From NCBI GenBank assembly GCA_902728285.1, contig CACVBU010001300.1, positions 20,497 through 84,496 of the forward strand: a stretch of 64,000 nucleotides of DNA. The letters are read 5' to 3'. Shown piece by piece: positions 6,237 to 36,152 of the stretch; positions within the stretch are counted from its first letter, which is position 1, and the number at the start of each line of letters is the position of its first letter. Source of the DNA: Clytia hemisphaerica (Eukaryota; Cnidaria; Hydrozoa; Leptothecata; Clytiidae). The position numbers were made by a program, and so were the translations under genes. The notes under the pieces are model-generated. The model was given only the letters and a program-made list of their open reading frames with translations. It ran no database searches and was not told the origin of the DNA.

Positions 6237-6300
6237 AGCTTCATTTCGTTTCGGAGCGAAACGGAACTGTTACCTACGAACATGGTCAAATCTTCCACCA

Positions 6301-7037: not shown

Positions 7038-7039
7038 TA

Positions 7040-8440
7040 GCCAACGTAAGTCTATTATCGATGTCGATACATTATGGTTTTAGTAAAAAGGCCTTTGAAT
7101 TAGTTTGTAAACACATAAGTCAAATCGTTCCTTTTTGATCTGATTCATTTCCAGGCCGAAAGTTTGCTGTTTTCATAGGTTAGCTGACAAACAAAGCTAT
7201 ACATGACGCAAGCTCTTGAAATTGGCTCAATTCATTCATTTTTTTAAATAAATTTCCGAGAACTTAACATGAACAATTCTTACATTTGAAACTGCGCCAT
7301 AAATTTTGTCTTTCCTTTTAGATGGTTTTTGATGGTCTGACGAAGTAAAGTATAGTTTAACTAGTAGTTCGCCAGTTTGGAGTCCTTTAGTTACCTGGAT
7401 ATTCAGGTAGGCTGTAATTATTTTTTTGAATTTTTTTTTGGGTAAATACCTGTTCTTCATAAATCTATTTGCATACCATTAAAAAGAAGCAGTGCACACG
7501 TATTCACTCTGTTTGTTTTATGACTGCGTATCGTGTATAAAATTCCCGTTCAAGAGTTACACTAAATTTGGGGTAACCTGTTTAAAATTCAATCTTCTTA
7601 AAAAAAACATAGAAATCCAATGACTTTATCAACCTCTAGCCATTGATAAAACTTGAAGATCTCTCATATAAGGCTTACTAATCTACTAATCAAGCTAATC
7701 AAGTTTCTAAAACTCAAAAACACAAAGACGGGAACGCATCCTCTATAACAAAACATATCAGAGGGGATGCGTGCAGCCTAATAATAAAGAAGCAATGCGC
7801 ATGCGTATTAAATAATTGCGTACAGTAAAGAAGTGACCGATCTTTAGTTTATAGTTATCTATCTAGACCAAACGTTAACCTTAAAACATTAAAATTTGAA
7901 ACAATAGTTTGCTGCTTCTTGGATATCCAGTCTAACAAAATTGTTAGAAATTATTTAAGTTTTTACAGAAACGGGATGTCTTTTTACATCGATAAATCTT
8001 AATTGAATCTTGAGAAAGTCAAACAAATGACAATTTAGGGATTAAACAATGTCAAATATGACATGGTAATTGGTTTCATTTTAGTCCCAAAATGACAAGT
8101 AGAGTCGTTTAAAAAGTTACATTTTCTTGAATGAACAACGTGACGATCCAGGATGTCTAGGTAGTGCCACAAAGGGGTTTATGGAGGTTTTATGAAGGTT
8201 ATCTTGTAACTTTTATAATAATTATATGATGGCTGAAGAATTTCACCACTAATTTTAAATAGTGCTATTTAGATATATGACTGTCAAGGGACCAAGGGTT
8301 TTTTTTAGAAAGATTCAGATTACGGAGTATTTTATATTACTTCCCTGCTGAGGGAAATGTTCGAATTACAGAAAGATTCAAATAATAGAGGTTCGAATTG
8401 TAGAAAGTTGATTTGTATTGTGTCAGCATGGTATACTTTA
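7040..8440. other. Gene-free stretch with a small hairpin
   Basis: Nothing coding is seen. GGGAACGCATCCTCT...AGAGGGGATGCGTGC (about 7731-7770) forms a short hairpin; 8340-8410 has decayed pogo-like words. Confidence 0.4.
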
Positions 8441-8631
8441 ACTTTACTAAATTGTGATTGGTTTTTAACTGGCGGAAAAACCATAAAAGTGGGGAGGCTG
8501 AAGACTCAAAATGGGTTAAAACTCGCTAAGAATTTGAGAAAACAATCTCATTTACTCAAAAGTGGGGAGGCTGAAGTCTCCCCAGTCTCCCCGTTTCCGC
8601 CGTATACTTTAGTTTTACTAAATCGTGATTG

Positions 8632-8931
8632 CCCGGGGGGGTACTACCCTTGTCGACCGACGGGGGTGCTCCGCTGAGGTTCGAAAAATGGACCCTACGT
8701 GGGACTCGAAATTTGCGAAAAAAGTGACCCTGAATGGGACTGAAATTCCAAAATTTTCTCAAATTTTCTCCTTTTTCCCCAAATTTTCCAAAAATAGGCA
8801 CCCTACGAGGGACTGATTTTTCTATTTTGGTGTTTTTGCGACCCTACCTGGGACTCGTGGAGGTTAAAAAAGGTACCCTGACCAGCGGAGCATCCCCGTA
8901 ACCCATCTTGCCCTAGTACCCCCCCCCCGGG
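8632..8931. mobile_element. 300-bp hAT-like MITE with 8-bp TSD
   Basis: Ends CCCGGGGGGGTACTA / TAGTACCCCCCCCCCGGG, flanked by the exact 8-bp duplication CGTGATTG (8624-8631 and 8932-8939). A related uninterrupted sequence (TTTACTAAATTGTGATTGG at about 8443) gives the empty-site structure. The interior has diverged GACCCTACGTGGGACT-type repeats. Non-coding. Confidence 0.85.
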
Positions 8932-9798
8932 CGTGATTGGTTTTTAACTGCTCATCGCATATGAATGCAAATCGATTTAAACTGATTGAGAGTTAAACTT
9001 TAAGGTCAAAATGATCTGACCTTTACTCGTTAGTTGAGATCTTCGATTGATTATGCATTTCACTGATTTCACTGTCTTAGTCAAAGCGCTATAAGTTATC
9101 TTATTTTGGTATTTGATTGTTTTAGTTAGTCGCATGTACTTGGAATCAGATCTGATTATGTGTTATGGTTTTACTACTCTCTGCACAATTAAGAGTCCTC
9201 AATACTTGAGTAGAGCTTGTAGCATAAGATTAAGAAACAAGTGTATTACTTCTCAATCTTTCAAGTTTCTTGCTTACGCCAAGTTGCGATTTCTCTTGTT
9301 TGCAATACTTTTCCTTTTTCTGTTTGTCTTGTATATAAATGGATGTAAACAAAACAAATTCTGACTTGTCATCAATAATAACCTACTTTTTTTCGGTTGT
9401 ATGCCTTTTTAGTAACATTCATATATCAAGTGTCAACCCAAGCATCACTTAAGAGAAATTCTTTTTATAAGAATATTGTATTGTTCAAAGATAGAGATAT
9501 TTCAAACTAACTTAACTTGGGAGTATCACAATTTTGGCTTAGCTTAATTTTTAGTTCTTTAGATTTGATTTTGCCTTTCTGTTTTAAAATTTATCTTGAA
9601 ATTCATCCATTGATTTTTTCAAATTCAAAGTTGTTTAAGATTCTTTCTTATAGATCAAAACAGTTTGTTACAAGTGAGACGTTAGGTATTACAAATAAGC
9701 TGCTTTTCTTAACATAGTATCACGCGTATAGAGCACAGGGCAAGTGTTGAGTGAAAGGTTTCATTAAGTCATACGAAATTATGAGCTACGACGTAATA

Positions 9799-10044
9799 CA
9801 CCTTTTTTATAAGAACAATGTATAAGAACATCTAGGCCAAAAAATAATTAACAATTTAATAATACTGCTGAGCCTGAAATTACTCAATTTCAAGCAATTT
9901 AGGGGTCAAAGCAGTAAATATTGGGTATAACTCAATTACACCCTTAAATAAGAACAGGATGACAACAATTTTTTGCTCAAAGTGCCAAAAAATAAGAAAA
10001 GCCGAGGCTCAGCAAAATTTTACCGGTTCTTATAAAAGAAAGTG
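9799..10044. mobile_element. TA-MITE, CACTTTT subfamily
   Basis: CACCTTTTTTATAAGAACA / GTTCTTATAAAAGAAAGTG ends with TA on both sides; the interior is shared with 6767-7037. Confidence 0.75.
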
Positions 10045-15640: not shown

Positions 15641-16230
15641 TGAATTTTGTTTGTCTAGAGGGTTAAATTAGAGCCTTTTTCCACATAGCGAACGCTAAGA
15701 GACGGTTGGGAAGTAAGCCAAGTATGTTTTAATTGGAAGAGTCCATCCTCCTTGTTATAACATTCTAACCAAGTCACTGGATGGAACAGTGATGTGTTTG
15801 AATTATATGATTTGGTCATGGCGTTCTAAATTTCTAATTCAAAAAAAGTAAAATTCTAGATTTAGAATGCAATGAATCCACTTTTTTTCGGGAGAAAGGT
15901 AATATTACCAATTCGCTAGCGAAATTCAGCTCAATTTAGCCTTCAGTTCCTTCACTCTAACCTCTAATGTACAATGCTCAATGTTACGGAACATTAATAT
16001 CGTGACTTTTTATAAATCAGTATTTTTTTATCCCTCTATAACTCTACTTTCAAAAAAGTTTATTAATCTTAATGTTTTCTTTAATTAGTACTCCTTATCT
16101 GATTAATTGATAGTCGTAATTGTATTTTATGTAAAAGACTGATAACATTAGGAAGTAATAGATATAATTCAATCAACATAATATATATTACTAGTGACTT
16201 GGATGAGTATGACCATAGGGAAGTTTATTA

Positions 16231-16387
16231 CAGTTGACGCTCTCTAATTCGATCTTCAAGTGGAATTGGATTTTCATCGAATGAGGGAGCGTCGTTAATG
16301 AGAATTTCTTGTTGACGGGGACTTTAAATTTCATCGAATAAGGGAGCCTATCGAATAGTAGAACGTCAAATTAGCGAATGTTAACTG
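16231..16387. mobile_element. Pogo/Tigger-like MITE, reverse orientation
   Basis: CAGTTGACGCTCTCTAATTCGA start and GTTAACTG end, TA on both sides. The interior is the reverse complement of 14601-14774. Confidence 0.8.
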
Positions 16388-17320
16388 TAGTTAAAAAGTA
16401 CGCTGGTTGTTTTGGACCCGAATTGAGATGTTAGCTGTTGATTATAAAGTGGAGTTTCCTTAACTGAGCACGCTTGGGGAGCTAAGATTTGTTCAAAATA
16501 TGGAGTAAGGTTTATATGGCAATGTTAACTTTTTTTGCGGATGGCCTGACTTGCGGAATTTCGAAAGACGTAGATTTGTTATTTGTTACTGACATAAAAT
16601 AGAAATCGATTTATGGAATTTTTTCAAAAAATTAATTCAACGAATTTGTATTATGTTTTCAAAGGGAGGGGTAATCTCAATTTTTTTTACCTTTGATAAA
16701 CTACCTTTTTAAAGATTTTCAAAGTAAAAATATTTTCGAGATAATTCCAAAATATTAGTATTTAGACCATCTGTAAAGACTGATAAAAACATTTGTGAAT
16801 TAAGTTATAAAAATATTCTTCATATACTGATCAGTCATCTAATTCCCTTATTCGGGAAATTTCATTTTCAAAATATTATAAAAAAGAAGTTTTTTTTATG
16901 TTTTCGAAAATAAAAATGAAATTGGGTGACCTCATCTGATGAAAACAACAGAGGAATATTACAAACCCATCCCGTCACATCTGTGACTAAAATACGAAAG
17001 GAGGAAAAGATATTTTATGAAAAAAATAATCGATTAAAGTTCTTTAAACTTTTTTTTTTATATCAAATTTAATATCGAAAAATTTTAATATAAAAAGATG
17101 AGTTTGAAAGAATTCCTTTGAAGTGATCCGGCGATCATCTATTTTGACCGGGACCTGGGCCTGGTGACATTCTAGTTGATGTATATTATGCAAATTCTCG
17201 TATCTTGATGATTAGTTTATGGTCATCCATGTCTCAGTGACCCGGTAAGAAATTTTTAGCCAATATTTTTTCTGACGGGTGATTTTTTGGTCAATTTTTC
17301 TAATGGTTTATCCCATCGAA

Positions 17321-17477
17321 TTCATGATATTCATGACGTAATGTTTTCTACGAAAAGACCCCGGTTATTGCCAGTAGTGGCAAATTTTATACATATTTTG
17401 TTTAGTTTGAATTTGTCACTACTGGCTAAAACCGGAGTATTTCCGTAGAAAACATTGCGTAATGAATATCATGAATA
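17321..17477. repeat. Imperfect hairpin with about 65-bp arms
   Basis: TTCATGATATTCATGACGTA ATGTTTTCTACG and its reverse complement at 17446-17477, plus inner arms CCCCGGTT...GCCAGTAGTG / CACTACTGGC...AACCGG. Likely a small MITE; no TSD assigned. Confidence 0.6.
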
Positions 17478-18215
17478 CCCGGAAGAATATCCATAATGTT
17501 TTATTTTTAATCTCCATTCGATAAAATCAACTGTTTTTTTATTGGTGAATATTAGTCGAGGTTAGATAGCTTCAAAAGAATTTTAAACCAAATACCATCA
17601 AATCGAGCGTTCCAATACAAGACGAAGACGAATTCGAACGTGTCCGATTAACATTTTTTTTGGTATTTTTGAAACTTGTTGTATGAATCAGCAACGAGTT
17701 ATGAATCTTTGATGCTCACCCGGCATTATATTAGTTTATGTTTTTTATTCGATTCTTCATTAGAGGTTTTCTTGTGATTCATCCTGCTCTTGGTCGAAAC
17801 CTTGTGTTTACTATCTTATCCTAGCGCGTTGCCTGCTTGAATCTCTTTTCGGCACTTTTGATTGGTAGCAAAAATTTCAAATAACAACTTCTTATCTCAG
17901 TACGTATGAATCTTTCAAGCACACTCTATTTCGAGCATGCTTTTGAAATCACGCATGCGCGCGCTGAAGGTTACGTAATGTTTCCTTCACTTTTTGAATT
18001 ATGTTGGATTGATTTCTCTAAAGATACTGTCAGTTCCTGAAAAATTGTTGTCACTTTTTTTGTGAGTACGAAATTTCACATTTGATTATCTGGGCTTTTG
18101 TCTTCTTGTTAGAATGTTTTCGAGATTTTCCTTTAAGTATCATTTTCACATCAATTTGAATCTGACTTCTGTTCTATGTGTGTATTTGTTCTTGAGTTTT
18201 AATATTCAACTAAAA

Positions 18216-18226
18216 GCTGTGATTTG
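18216..18226 (-). promoter_or_regulatory. Gfi1 core site (CAAATCACAGC on - strand)
   Basis: Contains the AAATCACAGC core of the Gfi1 consensus TAAATCAC(A/T)GCA, about 7.2 kb upstream of the predicted start codon. One of seven perfect 10-mer cores in the window, all within 18.2-26.7 kb. Confidence 0.4.
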
Positions 18227-18421
18227 TTTATTTCAAAGCCGCGATTTCTTCAGGGACTATCAACACTCCTTTATATTCAAAGGTATATATTGTCATGAAA
18301 ATGATATGTCGACAATCTTCCAACAGTTGAATCTTTGCGATGGCAATATGGTTGACCTTTTTGGTAAACCTTCCTTTAGCTGTCTTGGTTATGGTTTTTT
18401 TAGAACTGTATTTTAGTGTTA

Positions 18422-18671
18422 CACGTTTTTTAAGAACAAACTATATAAGGAAATAAGGCTTTGATGACCAAAATATTTAGAACAAGTTAAGAATATTCTA
18501 AGGCTTCAAGGAATCTAAGACACTTAATTTATCAGGGAAAAGCAAAAAAAAAAACGCTTACAAAAATTGTGAAATTAAGAACATTTTAAGAACATTTTTA
18601 GGCTTAAATTTCAAAAAGTTGAGAACATCCGGAAGCTTCAAATTTTTTGGACGTTCTTATAAAAAAGCGTG
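18422..18671. mobile_element. TA-MITE, CACGTTTTTT family
   Basis: CACGTTTTTTAAGAACA / TGTTCTTATAAAAAAGCGTG with TA on each side; 250 bp. It sits in one of two tandemly duplicated host segments (see 18748-18965). Confidence 0.75.
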
Positions 18672-18747
18672 TATTTGACTTTTTGGTAGACCTTACGATG
18701 TGTTGGTTGTGGTGATTTTAGAACTGTATTTCTGCATTTAAGTAGTA

Positions 18748-18965
18748 CATGTTTTTTATAAGAACATCTAAAATTTTGAAGCCTTCGGATGATCTTAACT
18801 TTTTTGAGTTTTAAGCCTAAAATGTTCCGTAATAGTCTTATTTTCGCCATTTTGTGGGTATTTTTGTTCGTTTTTCCCCAAAGTCTTAAAAAGTTCTTAA
18901 CTTGTCTTAACATTTTGGCAATCGAAGCCTTATGTTCTTATAGTTTGTTCTTATAGAAAAAGGTG
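18748..18965. mobile_element. TA-MITE, CACGTTTTTT family, opposite orientation
   Basis: CATGTTTTTTATAAGAACATC / TTTGTTCTTATAGAAAAAGGTG with TA on each side; interior reverse-complementary to the neighbour at 18422-18671. Confidence 0.75.
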
Positions 18966-19669
18966 TAGATGATCCCTTGAACGCAGAATATATTAAGTTG
19001 TATGACACGGGTTAGCGACTTCAATTTGGTTTAATCCATGTATGTTTTCTTCTGTGTTAATAGGCTTATAATTTTGATTATGTAACTACTTTTAGTTTAG
19101 TAGTAATGCTTGAGGAAGTGCGCTACATTGGTCTGTCAGTGGAAGTTTGATTGAAGTTTAGTAGTTTGTAATATGGTTCTCTATTTTTCCCTTGCGTTGT
19201 GATACTTCTTGACTATTGACTAACAAACTACAACTGGACCCGGGGGGACTGGGGTGCTAGGTTTGGCGGATGAGAAGTATGTGCGGACGGCACCTCCGAA
19301 AACCGATCCTTAGATAGACCAAATTTTTAGTGAAAAGCGCCCCTTAGCGCCCCTTAGCGGGCCATGGGAACAATATCGATCAGGCCACATGTTTGTGGTC
19401 ATTTAGTTGTTTACAGCGGGAGATATAATCATCCGGATTTTTCAGCTTTTGGAATTTTAGTAGAATCTTTTGAAGACAAAAGGATGATTGTGAAATTCAA
19501 ACAAGAGAGTTTTAATGTTTTAAAACCTTTAAAGCTCTTATTTAGTTTTCTTTTATTGAAAACGATAAAACCTTCAGCAGCTCATAGTATTGTCCTTAAA
19601 TCAAATACGTAATCCGATTTCCGATTTTCAATTCCGATTTCAATTAATCCTAAAAATCCTAAATCCTAA

Positions 19670-19827
19670 AAACATCATTTTTTAAAGCTTTGCGGACTCT
19701 AAAACAGCCGATTTCTTAGGAAAATGGACAAAATTACTTGAAAAGAACGGTGAAATTAATATCATGCTTAGAACGTTTTTAGGCTTAAAACTTAAAAAGT
19801 TTCAAAATATTTTATAAAAGCGTGTAG
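19670..19827. mobile_element. Truncated TA-MITE fragment
   Basis: Interior words of the family (CTCTAAAACAGCCGATTTCTTAGG) and right end TTTTATAAAAGCGTG followed by TA; left end absent. Confidence 0.5.
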
Positions 19828-20374
19828 TAGAGGGAGTAGTAAAGTTTTTGGAAAATTAGTTGAGCGAGCCAGATGTGGAGAGGGAATCTGCCTTTTGATG
19901 ACTTTGACAGACAGAAGAATTGAACAATGTAATGCTTATTATAGACTAAGAAATCAAGATTTTGGGCACAATATTAAAACCCTTCTCTCGAGCACATGTC
20001 ACTTTTCTCGTTCACCAGGGGGCCATAGTGTCTGAAACAAATTACTTCAAAAGGAAAACCTTCAGGCGCAAACAAATATATTATTAAAGAGATTTCATTG
20101 TTTTCCTTAATTATATCAACAATCAAGTGATTTGCTAAATTTTTGTGCAATTATTTGCTTATTGACCCTCGTGTTTTCTTTTGGTGTTGTAACACAGTGA
20201 TGGCCGATCAATTAAAATCAATTAACAACTTCAATATACATTGGACATTGTCAGCTTTATAAGAAACGTTAAATTCTACATTTTGAATCCACTTGCTTCG
20301 TTTTGAATGGACCCTATTTTCGCACTTTACAGATCTTTCTAATGTCTCATTACTCGAATTCATAGACTAATAGC

Positions 20375-20386
20375 TGCTGTGATTTG
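20375..20386 (-). promoter_or_regulatory. Gfi1 core site (11 of 12 consensus positions)
   Basis: Reads CAAATCACAGCA on the - strand, mismatching the Gfi1 consensus only at its first base; about 5.1 kb upstream of the predicted start codon. Confidence 0.45.
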
Positions 20387-22435
20387 CTTTCTTTTGGCTT
20401 GATTCATTATGGTACAATTCTGAGAACGTTTCAACGCTTTGCTCTAATTTTTAATCGTATGGAATATTTGATCTAATAAAGAAAGGTCATTCCATGTGTA
20501 ATAAAACAGCTATAATAACTACATCTAAATTATACTTTTTGTCAACATTTACAAAGGACCATGTTTTGTAATATGCCTCAGTGAGTTACTTCCGACTGCA
20601 GGTGGTCATATTTATTCTTTCACAAAAAATGGTCTTTTATGATTTTTCATCATGACCCTGAAATACAGTATATCAATTTCCGTTACATCAGTCACTTTTT
20701 TGAAAGTTTTATTGTTGATAGTCAGAGTCAAAGATGAATGGATGAGGGGTAATCTGTTTAGCGATGGCTGCATGTTAGAGTGCAATTTTCTCAAAAGTAT
20801 TATGATAGTTCTTTTTATGATATACTGTTGGAACTTGGAAGGAGGCGCGCCGCTGTGCTGACAACGCAGAAACAACAAAATAATTTCTCTCAAAATGTGT
20901 ACTAGCGTTGGGCGGAACGGAGAAGTTGTTGTCTTCCCTTTTAAAGATGCTGTGTAAGCAAATGACAGGAGATCAATTATATGATTTTCTTCAATTTTTG
21001 TTTTTGTTTCAAGCTCAAATGAGATACTCAATTAAAAAAGAGCATTATTTTTTTAGTATTCCCTTAAGCATACAACAGGATTAAGCTGATAAAGGGCCGT
21101 TGTTATTCCTGATTTTTTTTCAATTTCGCAATTTTCCTATACAGAATCTACAAAATAAATCTTCTTTTTGGCATTGTCTTTTCAGTATTTGAAGTAGATT
21201 GATATGGTTTTTGTTTATAGGCGCCTTGTTTGTGTTGTGAAAAAAAAAAAAAAATAAAAATAAAAATAAATCAATTTTTTTTGAAATTTTTATCAAGAAG
21301 TAGTTGGAAAAATCTCAAACAGGTCTGTGCTTTAGAAAATTTTGGCTTTTATCAAATCGAGTCTGTGGAATGAAAGAGTTATCAATTTATAGTGTTATAA
21401 CTCATGCGGCCGCTTGAGTCCTGCTCTTTTTCGACACTAGTTTATCGAGTCCCGTACGGACTCCAGAACAGGACATAGTTTTTTTATCGGGGTACGAGGA
21501 CCACACGAAGATTATAAACGACTGTTTCGGGCTGCACTTTAAGGAGTTAGAATTTCGCGTAGAATGAAGCAAAATTAAACGGATCTGATTTCTTAGTAAA
21601 GGTGTGATAAATTTTCTTCGATTTTTTTATCTAAGATACGGAATTTTGAAAAACGCTTGATGGCGTGTTTCTTTGTCATTGCTAATTTTAGACGAATTAT
21701 TTGATTGTATGAGAAAAAATTTATTTAATTAATCGGTAAATAATTTTTTTTTCTCTCGATTTCTCACAAATTTCTTTCTAGCAATTTATGACTTTTGCTT
21801 TGAATGAAAGATTTACCGCTGTGATAAAGTGAGTCTCTTAATTAGTCGCTCTCAAGTTTCCGAAAGAATGGGTGTTAAAAATTTTCATATACTAATTGAT
21901 TTTAGAGGAAGTGTGATAAATCTCAAGTTTTATTCAGGAGGTTCGTTGTAGCAAGGGGTAATCAGTTCACATGTGTGCTCAAAAATGTCTGCTCGCATTT
22001 GAGACATTTTTCTGTTTTGGCTGGTGACATTGAAGCATGATAGATTTTGGTTCCTTTTATTTTCTTGACTCTGCGTGTTTGGCCTTATCAGAAATTTGTA
22101 AAAATTGGAGAAACCTCGACCATCTAATGATTTCCCCGCGTTGTTAATGGTGAAAATATCATAAGGCCTTGTATAGACGGCGGCTAGGTTAAGTTAGGGC
22201 CTGTTCCTATTAAGTTTATATATTTTGAGGTTTCTTCTTCCTCCTTCTTCGACATATACTAAGATATTCATGTCTTATTACGAAATAGTTCTACTACTGT
22301 ACTGGTGTTTACGTAAAATTGGATTTCTTAGTTTCGAAGAATTAGAAAAAGTCAGAAAAGAGGGAGAAGGTTCTTCATGTTGTTCCTTTTTAATGTATTT
22401 ATGTGTGTTTGTTTTTTAATGTCTTCGTTTTAAGG

Positions 22436-22447
22436 TGCTGTGATTTA
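22436..22447 (-). promoter_or_regulatory. Perfect 12/12 Gfi1 consensus site
   Basis: Reads TAAATCACAGCA on the - strand, matching every position of the published Gfi1 consensus. A second core lies 36 bp downstream at 22472. About 3 kb upstream of the predicted start codon of the Gfi1-like gene. Confidence 0.55.
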
Positions 22448-22471
22448 CCCTCATCCTAAACTCCTAAACTT

Positions 22472-22483
22472 TGCTGTGATTTG
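22472..22483 (-). promoter_or_regulatory. Gfi1 core site (11 of 12)
   Basis: CAAATCACAGCA on the - strand, paired with the perfect site at 22436 at 36-bp spacing and in the same orientation. Confidence 0.5.
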
Positions 22484-25285
22484 TTCATAGAAGAGAAAAT
22501 GTGAGTCTAGTTGATTTCTCGATCATTTTTCTTTTGTTTACTTTTTTACTTTTTTTATTTCACACAAAAGAGAACTCACGTTGGGTTCATTTCAACGAAA
22601 GACACATCAATCAACTTATCATGGTTTTGATGAAGTTATTCGTATTTTCAATTTGTAAGGAGATTGACTTGATGAGAGTTATGATATAAGATATGCACAT
22701 CTGGAGATTTTTTGACTTTTTCTCGAAATTGTTTGAAAAAAATAATTGCGATCTTATCTTTTGTTCGTTTTTTCGAAAACTGAAACATCTTTTGCACGCA
22801 TTTTGTGTATTAACGAAGTTAAAGATGCATTTGCGTTTCAAAGTGGGAAGTTTTTTAGCAGAAGAGTATTTTTGTTTTAGATTTCTTCCATGCTGCGATT
22901 GTTCAAATATTCCGCTTTCGCTTCGTTTCCTCTTTTCTCTCGTTTATATCTCCTTGAAAGCCGATCATAATGATGCGTTATGGGTCTCTTCTACCTTTCC
23001 TATTAAGAAGCATTGTGAAATCAGAGCGTATTCAAATTTTGGATTCAGAATTTTACGCTTTTCCCTCTAAACTTCCCGCTAAAGACTTCAATACAATCCT
23101 TTCAGGTGAATTTTAGATTTTTAGGAAGGGCGTTTATATATGTTTGGAAAGCTTTGCGATGAGTAAGCAAACGATGATTTTCCGTTTTTCGAACAGTTGT
23201 CTTGATTCGCTACTGTAAAAAAGTCTAGTTTTAAATCATAACATTGTAAAAGGGGGGTCATATAATAATGTCTCGTAAAAAGAGGTTAACTAAAAGAAAA
23301 GAAAATAGATAACAAAATTCTAGAAAGGATATATAGTGGAAAATTCCAGCTGATCTGCCGAATTATAGACGCACAGTATTTTATAGAACAAAAGGTCCCT
23401 TTCAGATTAATAGAATTTAAAGACATCAGGCTTTTTATTCTTGTTCTTTTTAACTTAAAACTATTAATTCTTTGTAAAAGACTTTGCAAAAAAAGTAAGA
23501 GGGGAATGGGGGAGAACTTGTTCTTCTCAACCTTTAGTAGAAAGAGATACCAACTTAGTGCCCAGTCTCTTTTTCTCTAACGAATGTGATTTGTTTTAAC
23601 AGTTTGAGAAAGCAGGTACCCACGTGTTTTTGAACTTTCTGTACAGAAAAGTAATCGCGGCTGTTTTAACATGAAGAAGAGAGATATTTCTTTCTCTTTA
23701 TTGAAACATTGGGAAGTTGTGCTCTGTGATGTCTGAGTAGAAGATTAAATTTAGTACATTTTAAAATGTATTACTTCAAATTATTATAACGATAATCTTT
23801 ACATATTTGGAAAATGATGCAAGGGTGAAATAATGAGAAGGGGGAACGATAGATATTACTTTGAAGCCTTGGAGAACTGTTTGCTGTGAAGCAAAAGGTT
23901 ATGTATTTTACTTTGAATTTGGATATGCAAACCGTAAATGATTCTGGCTAGGGTTTGAATATATAGACATCAATTCCCAATATTAAAATTGGTAAAAGAT
24001 ACAGGGCGATGTATGAATTATCGAGACTCAACTGGATTATTTCTATCCTTAATTCTTTTGAACACCCCTGTCTCATCGGCCCGATGACTTCTCATTGTCC
24101 ATCGTGGAATGCGCATTTCAACGGGAAAGAAAATTAAATGTATTTTTCCAACTGGGAACACAGGAGGGTATTTTTGATTTTGATATTTTCATACCTACAC
24201 CAATCTCAACCAATGTGTGCAATTTGAATATCGTAGAGAAGATCTTCGTGCTTTAAGTTCAATCATATGGCTAAAAAGTTAGGATACGTTTTTGTGGTTT
24301 TTAGTTATAGTTTTAAGATGTTAGAAAACGTCTATTTTCCTCTATTTTATAAAGCCTTATTTTTATTAACATTCTTTTGAATTGAATGTCAATTTTTGTG
24401 TGAGTCTTATTGTCTCTCAAACCTAAACATTCTCAAAAACCGAATTCAGCTTTTTTTTTGTCAGAAATGGCAAAATTGTCGTCTTTCGTGTCGATATAGC
24501 TGTTTAGCCGCGTTTAGAAACTGCATCGACCTGCTCTATAATGAACCTTAATTAACTGACCTTTTGTTAAAAAAGAGGGTATTTAATTTTTATGATCTTG
24601 AAGTTATTCGCTTAGTATCCGGCCTTTAATTCGAAGAAACTATAGCTACGCAATTAAAAAATTCGATTGGTTTGAATAGCTTCTTTGCTCACTACTTAAT
24701 GTCGCCGTGGTTAATGATTTTTTCTCTTCTCTTTTTAATTACAGCTCTATAGATGAGAACAAAAGGATCAAATGATAAAAACTCGTAAAAACTATTGTTT
24801 TTAAAAGACCAACCAAGCGAAAAGAATCGGACACAGGCCTCCAACGTTTTTTTATGTACACGAAGACTGCATAAGCATTTTCTGAGAGTCTGGTGAGACA
24901 AATCGCAGTTTTTTGTCGCTCTCTTTTTGTCAGGGTTGTGATTTATCAATCAATGATTTTTTGAAGTGCTTTTTCAAATTTTCATTTTCTGAAAAAGAAG
25001 AAAGAAAAAATCGTGATTGTGAAAAAACAATAACAAAGGCACTGAGAAACTGTCAATAATATTTTTGGACATTGATGGAATGAACGAGCAGAGGAGCAGC
25101 ATTGAAATAATATTATAAACCAAAATATAAAAAAAAGGAGGGCAAGTTTTACTTGAAAATACATTTTGTGAAAATAAATTGGCGTAGTGTAATCCAACAC
25201 ATACATCTGGGAAGCAGTTGGAAAAGCAAGGCGAATAAAAAAAGGAGAAATTTTGTTGTTTTCTCTTATTTGAATTTTCATGCTG

Positions 25286-25293
25286 TGACGTCA
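25286..25293. promoter_or_regulatory. Palindromic CRE-like site TGACGTCA
   Basis: A full CREB/ATF palindrome TGACGTCA lies about 160 bp upstream of the predicted Gfi1-like start codon, a plausible proximal promoter position. No TATA box or initiator was confidently placed. The site is seen directly; function is inference. Confidence 0.35.
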
Positions 25294-25454
25294 GTGAGAA
25301 GTTCACCTACTTTTTGTTTGGACAGGTTTGGAAATCAAAACGAGAAAATTTTTGAACTCCGGAGTACATTAGATCAAATAAAATTTGGACAAAGATTCTC
25401 ACACCAAAGACATTGGGATCTGACTACTCTTTTCGGATACACACATATTGGGAG

Positions 25455-25512
25455 ATGGCAGAGGAAGAAAAGATTGCTCAGGATGCAACTAATTTCCTGT
25501 TCTTTGTTCAAG
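25455..25512 (+). CDS. gfi1: Gfi1/Senseless-like gene, predicted first coding exon
   Basis: Predicted start exon of the zinc-finger gene completed at 31501. It encodes MAEEEKIAQDATNFLFFVQ plus one base of the next codon, followed at once by a donor AAG|GTAATA. The exon ends in phase 1 and the zinc-finger exon opens with two bases before its first full codon, so the join gives a glutamate and keeps the frame open for 232 residues. The ATG has a purine at -3 and G at +4 and is the first ATG in its open frame. The exon lacks the SNAG repressor motif found at the start of vertebrate Gfi1 proteins; fly Senseless also lacks SNAG. The join is inferred from phase and splice signals only. The intron would be 5,988 bp, and an unseen intermediate exon cannot be excluded. 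Confidence 0.6.
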
Positions 25513-26540
25513 GTAATAAAACTTATTTCTTTTTTCTTCTTAGTTTTCATTTCATTCGGGATTTTATTCTTCATTTTTCCCTGATTGATATGATCAATGG
25601 ATTTTTGGGAATAAATGAGTAATAGTTTTCTTTGTTTTCTTAAATTCGTATTCACACCCCTCTCTCGGTGACTGAAGGATTCTTAACCGGTGGGTGTGGG
25701 ACAAAGGGACCAAATGCCAATTAAAAATGGAACCTAATCTCCTATTTATAAAGGGTGGATATTTCAAATTCAATTGTTCACACCTTCACACCTGGACTGG
25801 GTGTCAGAGTAGTATAAAGGAATAAAGGTGAAATGGCAGGGACATTTGTCTGTTTCTGTTTAATTTTTACTGTTTTTCCGCTTTATAGAAATTTCTATTT
25901 TCTTTTTCTAAAGGAAAAAAGTTTAAATGTATTTCCCAATTCGTTAAGTTGACAGAATTTTACAACAATATTTTTCTGATGGAAGCTGCTGAAATAAGAT
26001 ACATCCACTCCACCCCTTGCCAGATTTTCCCCTATTTTGTTCTTTTTAATGTCTTTAGAGGAACGATTCTAATGATTTTATCATCTAAAGCAAAACATAT
26101 GTTTCCTAAGATCGTTTTTTAGACAATACAGGCCTTTTTGCCTCCAGTTTTTGTGCAGGAAAGGATCATAAAAAATTTGGACATCAAATTTTCTATACAA
26201 ATTTATTTTACAAAATGTCTTTTACAAAATCTGGACTCACCCTTTTGTAGAAAATAGAAATAAGAAAAGATATTGTCTTTTTGCCCAACACATTAGCTTT
26301 TTTCAGAATAAAGGAAAAATAGAGACCTTTCCCCTTTTCCTTAACAAGTTATTCCCCGTGGAACTAAAATGCTTTAATAGTCTTGATGAGATTTAATATT
26401 TAGCACATTTTATTCATTCCAAAAAAAAGGTTTTTAGGGTTTGCTGTTTTTTCCTTGTCTTTATATCTTTTCCACTTCTTTAAAGATTTTCATTGAACAA
26501 AAAAAACTGGGGAAAAAAAATGGGAAGAAATCTGAAAATC

Positions 26541-26552
26541 TGCTGTGATTTG
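26541..26552 (-). promoter_or_regulatory. Gfi1 core site in intron 1 (11 of 12)
   Basis: CAAATCACAGCA on the - strand, about 1.03 kb 3' of exon 1; the surrounding DNA is unlike that of the upstream copies. Confidence 0.45.
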
Positions 26553-26640
26553 TTTCAATTTCCTTAAAGAAAATCTTAATCATGTCTTTGATCTTTCCTG
26601 TTTGCAACCTAAGAGACTAAAAAATTAAGGAAATTGGTGC

Positions 26641-26676
26641 GCGCGCTGTGATTTTTTACCGCGCGCGCTGTGATTT
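26641..26676 (-). promoter_or_regulatory. Paired Gfi1 cores at 22-bp spacing in intron 1
   Basis: Two copies of GCTGTGATTT (26645 and 26667), each preceded by a GCGC run, start 22 bp apart, about two helical turns, so both would face the same side of the DNA. This is an unusual GC-rich island in AT-rich sequence. Confidence 0.45.
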
Positions 26677-26770
26677 CTTATGTTATGACACCATAGTACA
26701 CAAATCACATCAATAAAAAATAAAATTTTCTTATCTCGACCGTCCTCACACAAAAATATTTTGATCAACA

Positions 26771-27035
26771 CACTTTTGTTGTAGAACAGCTGTATAAGAA
26801 CATGCTGACAAAAAATCTCAAAAATGACAACGATAATTTTGAAGTTAGAACAGTTTTGAGAACATCTCCCAATTTGGACAAAATTTTGAAGCAATTATCA
26901 ATGAAAACATCAATGATAATTTGTTGGCCTAACTAAGTGACTAAATACTAAAATGCACTAAAATTCATTCTAAAAGGGGAACAATTTGATGCTGAAAATT
27001 TTTGAAATTGATAAAATTTCTTATGAAAAAAAGTG
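26771..27035. mobile_element. TA-MITE, CACTTTT subfamily, in Gfi1-like intron
   Basis: CACTTTTGTTGTAGAACA / TTCTTATGAAAAAAAGTG then TA; left flank CA. 265 bp. Confidence 0.6.
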
Positions 27036-27661
27036 TACAAGCTAAGCACAAAAAGCTGACGAATCATAAACTAAATGTCCATTTATATTTTCTATTGTCT
27101 CTCTCAAAGTGAGGGCGAATAAAAACATTTCTTATCTGCTTAGATCCTTTCCAGAGATCAAACATGGACACATATTTTTATACAAAACTTCAGTCACTTC
27201 AACTATCAACATCATCAAAATCTATAATGATATTAAAAAAATGAGAAATATGTTACAAAAATAAACGAAAAGGTCATCATATACTGAAGGGTTAACGACC
27301 CCTTACGACATTTTTTTGATATTTTGATAGCCGTGGGCAGACAAACCTTACATAAAATCTCATCAATTTTTAGCTAAACATTTTAAGCTTTTGACATTTT
27401 ACATGGAAAGTTTTCAGACTTTATTTAGTTGAGTCCTCTCAACATTTACTTTAGTTTGAATCTTTGAATTAACATGTTGAATTAATAAAAGCCCTGCCCA
27501 GTTTTGAATCATTTTAGGTCAGCTGAGAGCACTGGTTTAACAAGACGATTCATTTTCCTTAAAGGTTTTATTTTAGTGTTCCTGTTTCATATCAGACACA
27601 TATTTCATAAGCAAAAAATGTTTTTCTTTTCATCTTAATGACCAATCTTGCTCCACATAAG

Positions 27662-28150
27662 CAGTCTGTGCCACTAACTCAATCGGGAAGATTCTTCCGA
27701 AATGGGAAGAACCTTCCCGAACGGGAAGAACCTACTCTAATTTTTTTCTGCCTGTTTGGGAAGATTCTTCCTCTTTGGGAAGTTGAAAATTGATTGAATC
27801 TTCGGCGAAGCTGTATGATGACCGGCGAAAATTGATACTTTTTGGAGGTGAAAAAGCATCAAATTTTAAGGTTTTTCACCGAAAGAGAAGCAAACTTTAC
27901 CGTAGAAATCTTGTTAAATTGTGAAAAAACTGTGTAAACATCCCAAAGAGGAAGTTCCAACCCGATCGAGATTTCTTTATTTTCCCGCTTCTTCCCGACC
28001 TGGAAGTCCGTTTTTTAACTTTTACCCGTTTGGGTGTCAAGTTAATTTCCGGTTCGGGAAGGTTCTTCCCATTTCGGAAGAACCTTCCCATTTCGGAAGA
28101 ATCTTCCCATTTCGGAAGAATCTTCCCGATTGAGTTAGTGGCACAGACTG
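27662..28150. mobile_element. CAGTCTGTGCCACTAACTC element, 5-bp TSD, copy 1
   Basis: About 70-bp inverted ends starting CAGTCTGTGCCACTAACTC and built from GGGAAGATTCTTCC-type units, with exact TSD ATAAG (27657-27661, 28151-28155). 489 bp, non-coding. Same family as 36153-36907. Confidence 0.85.
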
Positions 28151-28236
28151 ATAAGTGTCAATCTAATATTATCACTCTTATTTAAAAACAAAACCTTTAA
28201 GAATGCATAAAGTTCTTGAATATTTTTGTTCTGATA

Positions 28237-28655
28237 CACGTTTTTTCAATAAGAACATCCAAATTTCTCGAAGCCTTAGGATGTTCTTAATTTTTTGGGT
28301 TTTAAGTCTTAAAATGTTCTTACCTTGTTCTTAATATTTTGACCATCGAAGCCTTATGTTAGTTATTATATTGTTTGTTCTCATACACGCTTTTTTTTTA
28401 TAAGAATACACTTTATAAGAATGTCCATGATGAAAATGGGCAAAAAATTAAGAATATGGTAAGAATATCACCATCATTGAATTTAGCAACTGAACCTAAG
28501 AATGTCATTTTTAATGCATTTTAACCTGTAGATTGCCAATTTCAATCTTAACCTAAGAATACCGTAAGAATATTTTTGGATGATTTTTGCCAAAAAGTTA
28601 AGAATATCCATGATGAAATGAAAAAACACCATTCTTATAAAAAAAAAGAAGCGTG
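28237..28655. mobile_element. Chimeric pair of TA-MITEs: half element fused to a complete one
   Basis: 28237-28384 is a CACGTTTTTTCAATAAGAAC half element lacking its right terminus. 28386-28655 is complete (CACGCTTTTTTTTATAAGAA / TTCTTATAAAAAAAAAGAAGCGTG, TA flanks) and is the reverse complement of 38164-38442. Confidence 0.7.
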
Positions 28656-28815
28656 TATCAAGAACGTGTATTTTAGAAGCTAGATCGTTGTAATAAAATA
28701 GCCAGAAAATTAATTATTATTCAAAAAACATTTCAACAAATATTTTTCAGCATAAGCTTTTCGTTTTATTAAAAAACATCATCAGTGCATATACAAGTTA
28801 GATCGACATCCCTAA

Positions 28816-30513
28816 AGTCTGTTCACGATAAGTGTGCACTCTTTTTTCTTTTACCTATAACTTTTGAAGGAATTCTTCAATCTTCATAAATTTGGTATCG
28901 TTGGAGAGATATTTGTGAGTGAAACAATTTAAAATCAAAAAGTCTTCAAAAAAATTCTAAAAATGAAGATGAAAATGAAGAAGAAAAAAATGAAGATCTT
29001 GTAGAAAAGTGCTATAACTTTCATTTTCACTGGAGAGATTCTTTGATCTTAGGAGGTCATCACTGTGAAGAAATTTCACTGAAATATTTATTCAATATAA
29101 AGTTATGATACAAAGTTAATAAGTGATTGACCCCAAAAAACAGCAGAAAACAGGGTTTTTAGACGTCAATCAGCTTATACAGGGTTCCCAGCGGTCAGGG
29201 AAAACCTGGAAAACCTGGAAAAAGTAGCTTTTTTGGAAAAAGTCAGGGAAAACCTGGAAAAGTCAGGGAAAATTTAGAAAAAGTAGTGAAAGTCAGGGAA
29301 AAGTCAGGGAACTTTTTTTGGAATAGTCAGGGAAAGTCAGGGAATTCCAAAATCAGTCAACTCCAAATTACAAATGATAATTGAAATGATATTATCCTTT
29401 TCATCTTTCATTTTTGCAGGTATTTTATCAGCCAGTAAGTATTGGTGTATTGTAAGCTCTGTGATATTTATTTATTCCACAGTTCTGACAGTTTTGTTTT
29501 ACTTATCTCTTCATTAGTTTCTTTTATTTCGTTTTAGTGGTAGAAAAATGATCCGGGGGGGGGCACTCAAGGTAAATGACCTACCAGACGTTCGGCCCTT
29601 AAGGGTAGGTTTTTCATAGTTCAGGAAGGGTAGGAAATTACAAAACTGCACTGAACTGGACTGTAAGGGTAGGAAATTGTGATTAAAGGCCAATTTTTTG
29701 GTAAAATTGGCACAAAATTGGTCAATTTTGGAGGAAAAATTTCACATTTTCTTGGAAAATTGCAAAAATTTTTGCCCTTTGAAAAAGTGCACTGTAAGGG
29801 TATGATTTTTCATGGAAATTCACTGCACTCTAAGAGTTCGATTTTAGATAGAAGCCAAATTTTGAAGAAAATCTTTTTAGAAAGAGGAAAGAGGAAAGTT
29901 TTCATTCAAATGATAGCACGTTCATCTTTACATACATACGACGGTACCCCTTTTGTATCCTGGTTTTAGTGGAGTTTTAGTAGACTCACTTTTTAAAAAA
30001 TATATGTATTGAAATTTTGTTAAGTTTTATTTTTTTATCTCAATATGGTGTTTTTCAAAATACCGTTGGGGTGAACGGTCAGGGAAAAAGACCCAATATT
30101 CTGCTCTGGTCAGGGAAAAAGGCACCTTGGTCAATCTAAAAGTCATGGAAAAGGGCCTTTTTTTGGAAAAAGTCAGGGAAAAATATTTCTCTTAAGTGCT
30201 GGGAACCCTGTTATAACTTTGTTTGATATCTTTTGACTGAATTATTATTTTTTAGAATTTTTTTCACAGTGATGACATTCGATGATCAAGGATTCACTTA
30301 AGTGAAAATGATGGTTATAGCACTTTTCTACAAGATCTTCATTTTTTTCTTCTTCATTTTCATCTTCATTTTTAGAATTTTTTAGAAGACTTTTTGATTT
30401 TAAATTGTTCTACTCACAAATATCTCTCCAACGATACCAAATTTATGAAGATTGAAGAATTCCTTCAAAAGTTATAGGTAAAAGAAAAAAGAGTGCACTA
30501 TCGTGAATAGACT
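28816..30513. mobile_element. Long inverted-repeat element with nested insertion, in Gfi1-like intron
   Basis: Arms of about 240 bp starting AGTCTGTTCACGATA and GTGCACTCTTTTTTCTTTTACC match in reverse at 30300-30513, including the TCTCTCCAACGATACC and CTACAAGATCTTCATTTTTT segments. The centre is occupied by a separate element (29180-30210). Transcribed as part of the intron, the arms could form a long hairpin. Confidence 0.75.
29180..30210. mobile_element. CAGGGTTCCCAGC-ended element, 5-bp TSD
   Basis: CAGGGTTCCCAGC / GCTGGGAACCCTG termini with TSD TTATA on both sides. Both ends carry many (A)GTCAGGGAAAA units. The middle (29550-29960) has poly-G and AAGGGTAGG repeats and may itself be an insertion. 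The CAGGG start suggests a hAT-type element of the kind that makes short TSDs (inference). Confidence 0.75.
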
Positions 30514-31500
30514 ATAAATTATTATCGAACAATCACTAGTAACAAATTCATATATCCTTTGTCATTATATTCAAGAATCTTTATTTTCTCAACTAATCTC
30601 CAAGACTAAGCTTATAGACTGTCAAAAAGGTGTTTAGTACTTTACAACAATGACTTTATTCTACTGAAATTCTCTGATTTGTTCAACTGATTTCCTGTCA
30701 CTTCAGCCAAATGTGATTTACTAAAATTGATTGATCTTTTCCGTTTTGATTGTCTATTTTCTGATCTATTGGCAGTCAAAGGAAACAATTCAAATTGTCT
30801 GGCAATTTGAATCGAAGTTTGAGACATTGAGTGAAAATTCCTTTACCAAATGTTTTGAAATGATTTCAAGTAAACCCCCCTTAAATCTTTATATACCCCT
30901 TTCTCGAAAATACTGTAAAAGTTTTTAGCTAAAATGAAGGTACGTATTGGGTTTTTGCTCGACTGAAGTAAATTTTATATTTTTTTCAAGCTACACTTTT
31001 TTCTTGTCGTTGTCTACTAGTAATGTTTCCCTGTGTCTTAACATCATTCTGATATCCAATTAAAACTACCATGGTTTCCCAAGCACATGTTTTTTTTCTT
31101 AAAGATAGATTCTAGTTGTCTTGTCGCTTGACTTTTAGCTCTTTCAATTAATTCGAATTAATTTGTCGCTTTTCAAAATCAATTATTCTGGTATTTTCTT
31201 TATCTATAAGGATAAGGAACCAATTACATTATCTTAAATTCTTACCGTATTTGAAAACCCTTATAAAGTGGTTTCTAGATAATCCGCCACCTTCCTTGTT
31301 AGCTGTAAAGTTGTTTTGACGCACATATAACGTTTATTGGCGCTATTTGGCAGTTGCATGTCAGTTGAGATACCCTGAAATTTGTTTCCCCACTACAATC
31401 TCCTCAAGCCCTGCAATTCTCTTTCTTTTTTCCGCATCCACACTTTCATTTTTTTAATGCATCTCTAAATAGTTTTATTTCTCTCTTTTTACAACAACAG

Positions 31501-32141
31501 AACTTGCAGCAAAGTTACCAGCTAAGAAATTACGAGCGTTTAAAAAAGGACTGACAGAAGATCAGATAGACAACGAAGATGATAATGATTCTTGTGATTC
31601 TGGCTATTCTGGATCCAGTGAAATTGCAACCGATAACAAAATGGCGGAAGTCACTGCGGAAACGGGTAAACGATTCGAATGTTTAGTATGTGGGAAATTC
31701 TTTAAACGACGTTCATCGCTTTCAACACATAAACTTATACATTTGAACGTCAAACCATTCACGTGTACTGTGTGTGATAAAGAGTTTTTACGGAGATCAG
31801 ACTTAAAGAAACATTCGTTAATGCATACAGGAAAGAAACCTCATGAATGTCCTGATTGTGGTAAGGTATTTTCACAATCTTCAAATATGTTAACACATAT
31901 GAGGCGGCATACGGGCGTCCGCCCCTATTCGTGTAATATATGTGGACACGCGTTTTACAGGAAAGTTGATGTCCGTCGACATCAGTCAAGACATTTTAAA
32001 GAAAATAATACGTTAAAGTTACATACAATCACTAATAAAGTCGATATTTCACCACCGCCATCAGCTACCGCCACGATTGCGCCCATGCCTTTTATACCGC
32101 CAAGGCTACAAGGTGTAGCGCAACAACAAATAAAAATGTAA
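31501..32141 (+). CDS. gfi1: Gfi1/Senseless-like zinc-finger exon, terminal coding exon
   Basis: Encodes residues 20-232 of a sequence-specific nuclear transcription factor of the Gfi1/Senseless/PAG-3 family, generally repressors in cell-fate decisions. The exon follows a T-rich tract and ACAACAG acceptor. It begins with a basic patch (LPAKKLRAFKK), an acidic-serine stretch, then four C2H2 fingers at about 80-100, 108-128, 136-156 and 164-184, joined by seven-residue linkers. The recognition-helix region reads RRSSLSTH, RRSDLKKH, QSSNMLTH and RKVDVRRH, closely matching Gfi1 fingers 3, 4, 5 and 6. The two N-terminal Gfi1 fingers are absent, giving the four-finger layout of Drosophila Senseless. 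The tail (185-232) is Pro/Ala/Thr-rich and ends QQQIKM. At 232 residues the protein is short for the family. The stop is at 32139-32141. Family assignment is strong; the N-terminus is less certain. Confidence 0.93.
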
Positions 32142-33683: not shown

Positions 33684-35158
33684 CACTGGGCGAAATTTCC
33701 AAAGTTGTGGAAATATCATATTTCATGATACAGCACCTGACCCCGAGAATGTAGTAAACCCCGAGAATGTAGGTTTCTCATTTTTTAGCATTGTAGCCCT
33801 AACGATAGTTCAACTTCATAAAAATTTGTTTCATAGCATACTGTTACATCTTATTGATTATTTCTGGACAGAAAATTTTAACTTGAATTAATTTTTTCCA
33901 ACGAAAATCTGAATGGAAGTTGATTGGATATTACCCGAACTGAGACATTTTTTAAATAAATCCTCTCTAAATCGAAATCTATTGGAATTAAATTATGATG
34001 ATAGGGTATTTTCTTAGTCCCAATGAACTAAGGAAATGGGGAAAATTGTCCATTTCAATATTTACTGTTCCGAGTTAGATATTTTGACGAAAATGTTTGA
34101 CCTAACTTTTGGGGTTAGTTGACCTACAATTTGGGGGCTTTTATAACCCGACATAAAAAGTCTGTCAAATTATATAAAACTTGTTTGTTGTACTTTTATA
34201 ACATGAAAGTACTACCTGAGAGATGATTAATGTTGAAATTTTGAGCTTTTACGACGTGTTCCAGACCCGTTGGGGCCCCAGCCCAATCAGAAAATTTGCC
34301 TAAGTTTGGAGCAATAGAATTTCTATTCCAATTTGGACTAAGTAGAAATTTTTGACCCGATGTGGGAAGGGGCAGGGGTGTTGTTACATTATTCACATAT
34401 TTCAACACAAAATTTTCAACCTACAAAATAAAAACAACTTTCCTGTCCCTTCTTTTCGTCCTTCCTTTTACTTTTCCTCATTTGTAGTACGATGAAATTA
34501 ATATATTTGTTAATTTTTTGTCAGCGTATATTTCTAAAGTAATAATTTAATATGAATACCGAAAATATAATACCAAAAATATTCAGATGAATACCGAAAT
34601 TCCATTCTCAACAACCGAATCTTTTCACCTACATTCTGGGGGTTAAAAAGTGAAAAAATGCAATTTTCAGAATAACAAAATCCTCTTTAGAATATTGTTT
34701 TCGCATAAAACATTTCTAAAATTTGCTGTTAGAATTAATCCAATTGAAAAAATATCAACAATTTACTATTACTAGATTTAAAGCCATAAAACCAAACCTA
34801 CATTCTGGGGGCTATAACGTAAATGGGAGTCAACTTCAAGGACCAAAAAAATTGGTCTATCTATCAAAAGTAATGAAACTAACCCCTGGGAAAGGATTTT
34901 GGGAGTTCAAAATTTCGTTGAAAATATTTAATATCTTTTAAAATGCAAATCTACATCTTTCAGGTCTGATTCAAATTTCACCTACATTCTCGGGGTCAGG
35001 TGCTGTACTTCCAATTCTGAAGTTCATTGAAACATCATATTTTCAAGATATTTTCAGTTTTTGGAAATATCATATTTCCAAAAGTTGGAAATATTTTGAA
35101 AATATGATGTTTCAGATTTGGAAATATCATGAAATATATTTTCTTATTTCGCCCAGTG
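33684..35158. mobile_element. CACTGGGCGAAAT-ended element, host of a nested insertion
   Basis: CACTGGGCGAAAT at the left and ATTTCGCCCAGTG at the right, with GGAAATATCAT words inside both ends. TSD not clear. Its interior is mostly the element 33731-35005. Confidence 0.55.
33731..35005. mobile_element. CAGCACCTGACCCCGAGAATG-ended element, TA-flanked
   Basis: Inverted ends CAGCACCTGACCCCGAGAAT / ATTCTCGGGGTCAGGTGCTG, TA on each side, 1,275 bp. The word CCTACATTCT(G/C)GGGG recurs inside (about 34630, 34797, 34980). No intact coding frame. Confidence 0.75.
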
Positions 35159-36152
35159 GAGTATATGTAATGGGCTCAAATGCAGTGTGGTCGGAAAAAC
35201 CGGACAAATTGTAGATAAAACAGATTACTCCTACATTCTGATTTGTCCTGCTGATATATTTTGATTTTAAAGTTCAGTCTTCAGTAAATATTATTTTTCG
35301 TTTATTTGCTTTTTCAAAGGCGTGGGAGGGTAAAATAAACACAAGGGTTGGACTTTTTGGACAGCTTGAGGTTGATAAGGACATTTTTGAATCCAGGCAA
35401 TAGTTTTACATACATTGAAAAACTTCGCATAAAGATTGTTGGATTTTGTTTTATTTTGAAGTAATTTTTTTCGAAATGTACAAGATTTTCCCGAGAGTCA
35501 TTTTCCTCCTTGGGGAAAGATTTGGATATTTTAAATCCTACGCCCATTTCTCCAAACCGATTCTTTGTTGTGAAAATAAAAGTCTCAAAAAGGATTGTTG
35601 ATGAGAAGCCAATGGAGAATATGGAAAATCTACCAAATTAAATTATAACCTCCAGTTCTTCCACTCATAATTTCGAAGGTAAAAATTTTGGTCGAAATCC
35701 TTCATTCTTCAGGGGTAATAAACCGAAAATTTTTATTAATAACTCGGAATGAAATTTTTTATCGTCGGAATAAGAAAATTCCAATTGATTTAATTTTCAA
35801 GGGAAAATTTATTCTAATCTATATCTCAAAATAGAAAAATACATTTTTAAGAGGAAGCTTAGCCAATCGTTGAAAGTTTCTAAATAACAACTTAGATAGC
35901 TTATCTTTCTTTTGTCCCTTGTAGTAATGTCGCCATTTATAAGGACTAGACTCTTTTATGGATCCGAATTATATATATCGTTTTAAAATGTTATTCCTTT
36001 AACAACTTCAGAACAAATTTTACAAACTATTAAATTTAGAATCATTAATTTCCGTGACCTATTCAACCAGTGTGGACAACATTGTCTCAGTGACCCCGGT
36101 AAACATTCTTTCGGTCACTTGACCTATGAGCTATGACCTGAGTTGACGTTGA

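Follow-up and report, generated by a model that had tools for sequence, protein, structure and literature searches.

In vertebrates, Gfi1 exerts control over Gfi1-like genes, and Gfi1-family proteins repress via a SNAG domain and LSD1. Canonical Gfi1/Senseless proteins carry six zinc fingers and a SNAG domain, and a Gfi1-type DNA site is defined by TAAATCAC(A/T)GCA or by the core AAATCAC(A/T)GC. The published motif is given as aAATCac(ta)gc, in which the base following AATC is in lower case and less strictly specified, and its GFI1B form is given as aAATCacaGc (PMC7649360). Here, we analyze a 64-kb stretch of the genome of the hydrozoan Clytia hemisphaerica (contig CACVBU010001300.1, positions 20,497 to 84,496, forward strand; referred to as the window), in which a gene for a Gfi1-like zinc finger protein is accompanied by seven copies of a 10-mer, GCTGTGATTT. 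Written as AAATCACAGC, this word is identical to the GFI1B form. The seven copies are a cluster beyond chance, and their description as a site array of the Gfi1 type is well supported; from the sequence we infer that the sites are bound, which protein reads them, and how the gene responds. A homotypic array of Gfi1/Senseless-type sites that controls a SNAG-less four-finger gene, and that is likeliest read by a sister Gfi1 protein, is the reading we tentatively favor, and we judge it close to probable without quite reaching it. Among the matches listed in a literature search, titles and abstract openings held no description of such sites in a cnidarian.

All seven copies of GCTGTGATTT lie on the plus strand, and the minus strand of the window holds none. 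Upstream of the ATG start codon are site 1 (18216..18225, 7.2 kb before the ATG), site 2 (20376..20385, 5.1 kb), site 3 (22437..22446, 3.0 kb), and site 4 (22473..22482), which begins 36 bp after site 3 and forms a close same-strand pair with it. The other three are in intron 1: site 5 (26542..26551), 1.1 kb past the ATG, and sites 6 (26645..26654) and 7 (26667..26676), which form a second close same-strand pair. The original prediction had listed these seven coordinates, their single orientation, and the absence of a further copy on either strand, all of which we reproduced. Its description of the copies as clustered around exon 1 needs refinement: they do flank this exon, with four copies located 3.0 to 7.2 kb ahead of the start codon and the remaining three, all in intron 1, 1.1 to 1.2 kb past it. 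Each copy is an exact 10-mer core, and one of them, the copy at 22436-22447, fits all 12 positions of the full consensus, as had been claimed; the other six do not. Sites 6 and 7 are the units of one 22-bp tandem duplication (26639..26680), so the number of independent copies is approximately six.

Chance does not account for this cluster. In 100 dinucleotide shuffles of the window, the word occurred 0.17 times on average and never more than twice. Predictions from Markov models (orders 1 to 4) trained on the window ranged from 0.16 to 0.29 copies, and those from local models, for which the copies were masked during training, from 0.03 to 0.07 for the region from 16 to 28 kb. Variants with two mismatches were in modest excess between 17 and 31.5 kb (29 versus 18.8 simulated, with a maximum of 28 in 40 simulations). 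We scanned the genome assembly (417.4 Mb in 951 contigs) and found 706 + 721 copies of the word on the two strands, 1,427 in total, compared with 248 + 238 for a reversed control word. At the mean genome density, 0.029 copies are expected in the 8,461-bp span that holds the seven; the Poisson probability is approximately 3e-15 for at least seven copies and 2e-10 for at least five, figures that ignore repeats and the choice of the word. A search of the genome for same-strand pairs separated by 0 to 30 bases found only two, 22437/22473 and 26645/26667, where approximately 0.08 would be expected, and both are at this locus. A search in which the variable position could be either A or T yielded no further same-strand pair, and the reversed control then yielded 6 + 5. 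No divergent pair (AAATCACWGC followed by GCWGTGATTT at a gap of 0 to 30) was found in the genome; the convergent orientation was not searched. Among 100 of the 1,427 genomic places that were listed, we saw by eye no more than two copies in any 8.5-kb span. The 10-mer would have been unremarkable had it been equally dense elsewhere in the genome, and the counts and close pairs, which cover this question in part, indicate that it is not.

We next consider whether a repeat could have spread the word. Across all copies, the flanking sequences were no more alike than those of random places (P = 0.2 on the left and 0.4 on the right). The seven copies and their flanks fall in five distinct stretches; we searched the genome with three of these, which together hold five copies, and each returned itself as the sole match: 26600-26720 (121 bp, sites 6 and 7), 22380-22540 (sites 3 and 4), and 20310-20450 (141 bp, site 2). 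These three stretches cover every site except those at 18216 and 26542. The search skips very common words, and a self-only match is thus a strong indication, not a proof, of a single copy. By comparison, eight of the 1,427 genomic copies, which we fetched, included two pairs whose near flanks were the same, as well as one further copy that resembled one of the pairs. As far as tested, unlike flanks and self-only matches rule out one dispersed repeat family behind the array, and in the stretches searched there were neither generally shared flanks nor many genomic copies of a flank. The possibility that the sites are remnants of such a family, which could have overturned the original prediction, was looked at to this extent and did not come true. 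The array is thus a homotypic cluster with a density far above the genomic background that, in the three of five flank stretches searched, is not carried by a repeat.

The gene is encoded on the plus strand. The coding part of exon 1 (MAEEEKIAQDATNFLFFVQ) occupies 25455..25512, with a GTAATA donor at 25513; intron 1 extends over 25513..31500; and exon 2 (31501..32141) encodes four C2H2 fingers equivalent to Gfi1 fingers 3 to 6, followed by the stop codon. The spliced product, with four fingers rather than the canonical six, is the same protein as P0001 (EukProt TCONS_00027888), from which it differs by one residue by eye. Its N terminus, MAEEEKIAQD, has no SNAG domain; a pattern search for MPRSFLVK-like sequences in six frames of the window found none, though a SNAG domain may be unusual in sequence or may be encoded by an alternative 5' exon outside the window. 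By eye, the exon 1 peptide DAxNFLFFV is shared with P0003, P0006, P0009, P0012, and P0013, and none of these six proteins starts with SNAG; this peptide may be an unrecognized N-terminal motif. No relative of the window protein was confirmed among viral contigs.

The contact residues of fingers 3 to 5 differ from those of vertebrate Gfi1, in that finger 4 carries Arg at helix position -1 and finger 3 carries Ser instead of Thr at +3; the finger 5 contacts (Q, S, N, T) are identical to Gfi1, and finger 6 is alike. We compared the helices of related proteins (164 of 180 were parsed; the homologue list comprised 120 of 1,884 matches). Arg occupies position -1 of finger 4 in all 85 parsed proteins with three or four fingers, the window protein included (R type), while Gln occupies it in all 79 with five to seven fingers (Q type), which, among the matches listed, include named vertebrate, other bilaterian, and anthozoan members. 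A tree of 135 distinct finger regions, without the six-finger Gfi1 protein of C. hemisphaerica described below, split the two types at 100/100 and put the window protein on the R side, among P0002 to P0011 and paired with P0003 at a support of 96/0; this tree was built from 108 columns and carries a long-branch warning, and its inner order is unsure. By its finger count, its finger 4 Arg, and its place in the tree, the window gene, itself SNAG-less, is a member of the four-finger, R-type cnidarian Gfi1-like family. The earlier statement that its recognition helices match Gfi1 fingers 3 to 6 does not hold for finger 4 at -1 or finger 3 at +3. Together, these results leave intact the part of the original prediction that concerns a Gfi1-type array beyond chance that is not a single repeat family as far as tested, and they remove the helix match.

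To relate the fingers to the sites, we placed fingers 5, 4, and 3 on xAA-TCA-C(A/T)G, an alignment inferred from the zinc finger code that puts finger 4 helix position -1 on the A of TCA. A review of this code (PMC12264921) pairs Arg with G and Gln with A, and it assigns the 3' base of the triplet to the position in question, which it numbers -7. The window protein should therefore prefer AAATCGC over AAATCAC. Because the published motif is lax at this very base, we regard the argument from Arg as moderate and not decisive. The predicted R-type site, GCGATTT, was not enriched (2 in 14.5 kb versus 7 in 49.5 kb), and GCWGCGATTT was absent from four other stretches of the genome (those on contigs C49, C305, and C239 described below and the part of the contig just upstream of the window); with neither form in excess, we rejected the R-type word as the true motif. 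The partial site GTGATTT, on the other hand, was enriched (15 in 14.5 kb versus 7 in 49.5 kb), and of its copies beyond the seven, 8 of 15 fell within these 14.5 of 64 kb (P = 0.009).

These observations bear on direct autoregulation, the reading with which the locus was first described. Here, the gene's own four-finger protein would bind the seven sites, working through another effector, as an activator, or as a competitor of full-length Gfi1. Autoregulation has been reported for vertebrate Gfi1 genes, to judge from titles in reference lists, and the only close same-strand pairs found in the genome sit at a Gfi1-family gene; the Gfi1-like contacts of fingers 5 and 6, and the loose specification of the base after AATC in the published motif (PMC7649360), would permit such binding. 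Against this, the code predicts that an Arg at finger 4 reads G (PMC12264921), yet each of the seven sites carries A and the G form shows no enrichment; the protein also lacks a SNAG domain. As for precedents, whether human GFI1B represses itself in erythroid cells is disputed (PMC2962905), and in vitro work could not demonstrate that worm PAG-3 binds directly (PMC2657203). We consider autoregulation an unlikely explanation.

Other proteins encoded in the same genome have contact residues of the vertebrate type. L009, on contig C49, is a six-finger Gfi1 with the helices KRSSTLST, HQKSDMKK, and SQSSNLIT in fingers 3 to 5. L010, on contig C305, is a Q-type protein with four fingers in its open frame; its finger 4 helix is HQKSDMRK, and those of fingers 3 and 5 are KRSSTLST and SQSSNLIT. 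Both share the finger 3 to 5 contact residues of vertebrate Gfi1, and a protein other than the product of the window gene could thus read the sites. Two further genes, L012 and L013, lie 28 kb apart on contig C239; they are of the R type and, by eye, show no difference between TDSSSD and the end of the open frame, which may reflect either a recent duplication or a duplicate in the assembly.

Control by a sister Gfi1 fits these data somewhat better than autoregulation, which we place second. In our favored reading, the array, which extends over approximately 7 kb before exon 1 and into the beginning of intron 1, would be read by the six-finger Gfi1 from C49 or, alternatively, the Q-type protein from C305, and the sister protein would repress the window gene or limit its level or the cell types in which it is expressed. 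A more specific and more doubtful version is a duplicated repressor pair, in which the six-finger Gfi1 would repress its SNAG-less sister via the array, and the drifted finger 4 of the sister, with its Arg, would allow it to escape its own sites.

Several observations weigh against control of the gene by a Gfi1-type array. The single orientation of all seven copies has a probability of 1/64 by simple arithmetic (1/32 for six), and a transcription factor array needs no such bias. Close variants are few, with three one-mismatch forms between 17 and 31.5 kb versus a simulated mean of 1.4 (maximum of 5 in 40 simulations), and the T-variant GCAGTGATTT has no copy in the window, unlike in most site clusters. 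The excess of GTGATTT weakens when sister genes serve as the reference, where approximately 0.3 copies per kb predict approximately 4 in 14.5 kb and 8 were seen. The word itself occurs only once in 60 kb around L009 on C49 and is missing from 50 kb on C305 and 70 kb on C239. Some flanks are mildly alike: the left flanks of 22473 and 26542 (P = 0.011, uncorrected for 21 pairs) and the flanks of 18216 compared with those of 22437 (P = 0.018) and 22473 (P = 0.031). A repeat finder likewise reported a 21-nucleotide family at 18216, 20376, and 26542 (76 to 86% identity) and a 27-nucleotide pair at 22473/26542 (81%), both of which include the 10-mer. The claim that the flanking sequences differ is therefore right for the set as a whole and wrong for these few pairs. 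Finally, we examined 24 control pieces of 10 kb, which are not a random sample (18 surround the sister genes, 5 are parts of the window, and 1 is from this contig). Five of them held some complex 10-mer in at least five copies with dissimilar flanks, and in one of the five TTCTTATAAA, a dispersed word from positions 1 to 10000 of the window, reached seven copies.

Given counts of 1, 0, and 0 on C49, C305, and C239, we do not regard the sister loci as additional clusters; the 19.5 kb of contig that precede the window have no copy. Among the surroundings examined, which comprise these four stretches of a genome that has further zinc finger loci, the array marks one gene and is not a family-wide habit.

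A further reading is a cluster with no regulatory role, in which a short word was propagated locally, as in the subterminal repeats of transposons, and the match to Gfi1 is fortuitous. The single orientation, the scarcity of close variants, the mildly similar flanks, and the plain tandem duplication behind one pair of copies are all consistent with this account, as are other local clusters, both in the control pieces and in the window, where CGGAAGGGAC occurs six times at 53.7 to 57.3 kb and AGAATGTAGG five times at 33.7 to 35.2 kb. Moreover, an inverted pair at 18574-18666 and 28243-28335 (93 nucleotides, 77% complementary; 25 of 39 inverted pairs between 16000 and 31600 were listed) encloses six of the seven copies. 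This pair leaves out 18216, however, and its words, TTCTTATAA and AAAGCGTGTA, recur through the window; we therefore take it to be two copies of a dispersed element in opposite orientation, and we rejected a transposon as the frame of the array. The 8.5-kb span around an exon of the host gene and the self-only matches of three of the five flank stretches also argue against local propagation. In itself, a local word cluster is no rarity in this genome; what needs explaining is the coincidence of this word with the published site of the neighboring gene's family, and identity to the consensus of the very family encoded there would be a large coincidence. A fortuitous cluster thus seems improbable to us, if worth keeping in mind.

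A different role for the word would be at the level of another factor or of RNA, with the sites being read by an unrelated protein or acting in the sense RNA of a longer transcript, as a splicing or small-RNA element. All seven copies are on the coding strand. The plus strand has an excess of G and T in most 1-kb steps from 16000 to 26000, as in transcribed introns, and this might mark an upstream transcribed stretch. By eye, a splice acceptor of good appearance precedes the ATG at approximately 25.32 kb, making an upstream exon or trans-splicing possible, and GCUGUGAU resembles the fly K-box. On the other side, the window has no Rfam match at gathering score, most copies are separated by kilobases of noncoding DNA, and the match to the Gfi1 site covers the whole length of the word. 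Of all the readings, we find this one the hardest to credit.

Other elements were seen in the window. A probable DNA transposon at 53739-57260 has similar inverted ends at 53739 and 57251; its six copies of CGGAAGGGAC, five of them in one orientation, resemble subterminal transposase sites, and two sets of tandem arrays lie within it, of 124 bp (54126-54673) and of 122 bp (55114-55608). The five copies of AGAATGTAGG lie within 1.5 kb (33764-35239) and have mostly unlike flanks. Intron 1 holds two inverted-repeat elements that look like miniature inverted-repeat transposable elements, one at 27662-28150 with 67-nucleotide arms (93% complementary) and one at 28834-30498 with 285-nucleotide arms (90% complementary). 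On the minus strand, a 306-amino-acid open frame at 40485-41405 includes a CCHC-like sequence, HCYICDEDGHWLNSCP, has no Pfam match, and probably represents an exon of a different gene.

Should the sites prove functional, this locus would provide a Gfi1-family feedback or cross-repression circuit outside the Bilateria whose cis elements are visible from sequence alone. It would then be testable whether such wiring is older than the split between cnidarians and bilaterians, and how a duplicated zinc finger repressor without a repressor domain and with one altered contact residue fits into it. A cross-repressed pair, if real, would amount to the vertebrate type of Gfi1-to-Gfi1-like cross-control in a cnidarian.

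Compared with the self- and cross-control of vertebrate GFI1 and GFI1B, the locus is similar in having a Gfi1-family gene flanked by several Gfi1-type sites whose word equals the GFI1B motif (PMC7649360). It is dissimilar in that the window gene has no SNAG domain, four fingers, and an altered finger 4, and in that its sites are predicted from sequence; furthermore, an oligonucleotide from the human GFI1B core promoter (PMC2962905) contains AATC sites in other contexts and not seven exact 10-mers. The six-finger Gfi1/Senseless proteins, L009 and others, share with the window protein the homologous fingers 3 to 6, and they differ in two extra fingers and the Gln of finger 4; the window gene lies across the 100/100 split from them, in a tree that did not include L009 itself. 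DNA transposon subterminal arrays, of which the element at 53.7 to 57.3 kb is a probable example, resemble the locus in having a short word over kilobases, with mostly unlike neighbors and mostly one orientation; that element has similar inverted ends on either side (53739 and 57251), whereas the Gfi1-type array has only a weak enclosing pair, which belongs to a dispersed family and omits one copy. Relatives of the gene itself are the cnidarian four-finger Gfi1-like proteins P0002 to P0021, among them the Hydra "Gfi-1b isoform X2" (P0011), which have the same four fingers and Arg at finger 4 position -1, and five of which (P0003, P0006, P0009, P0012, and P0013) have the N-terminal NFLFFV peptide in common with the window protein.

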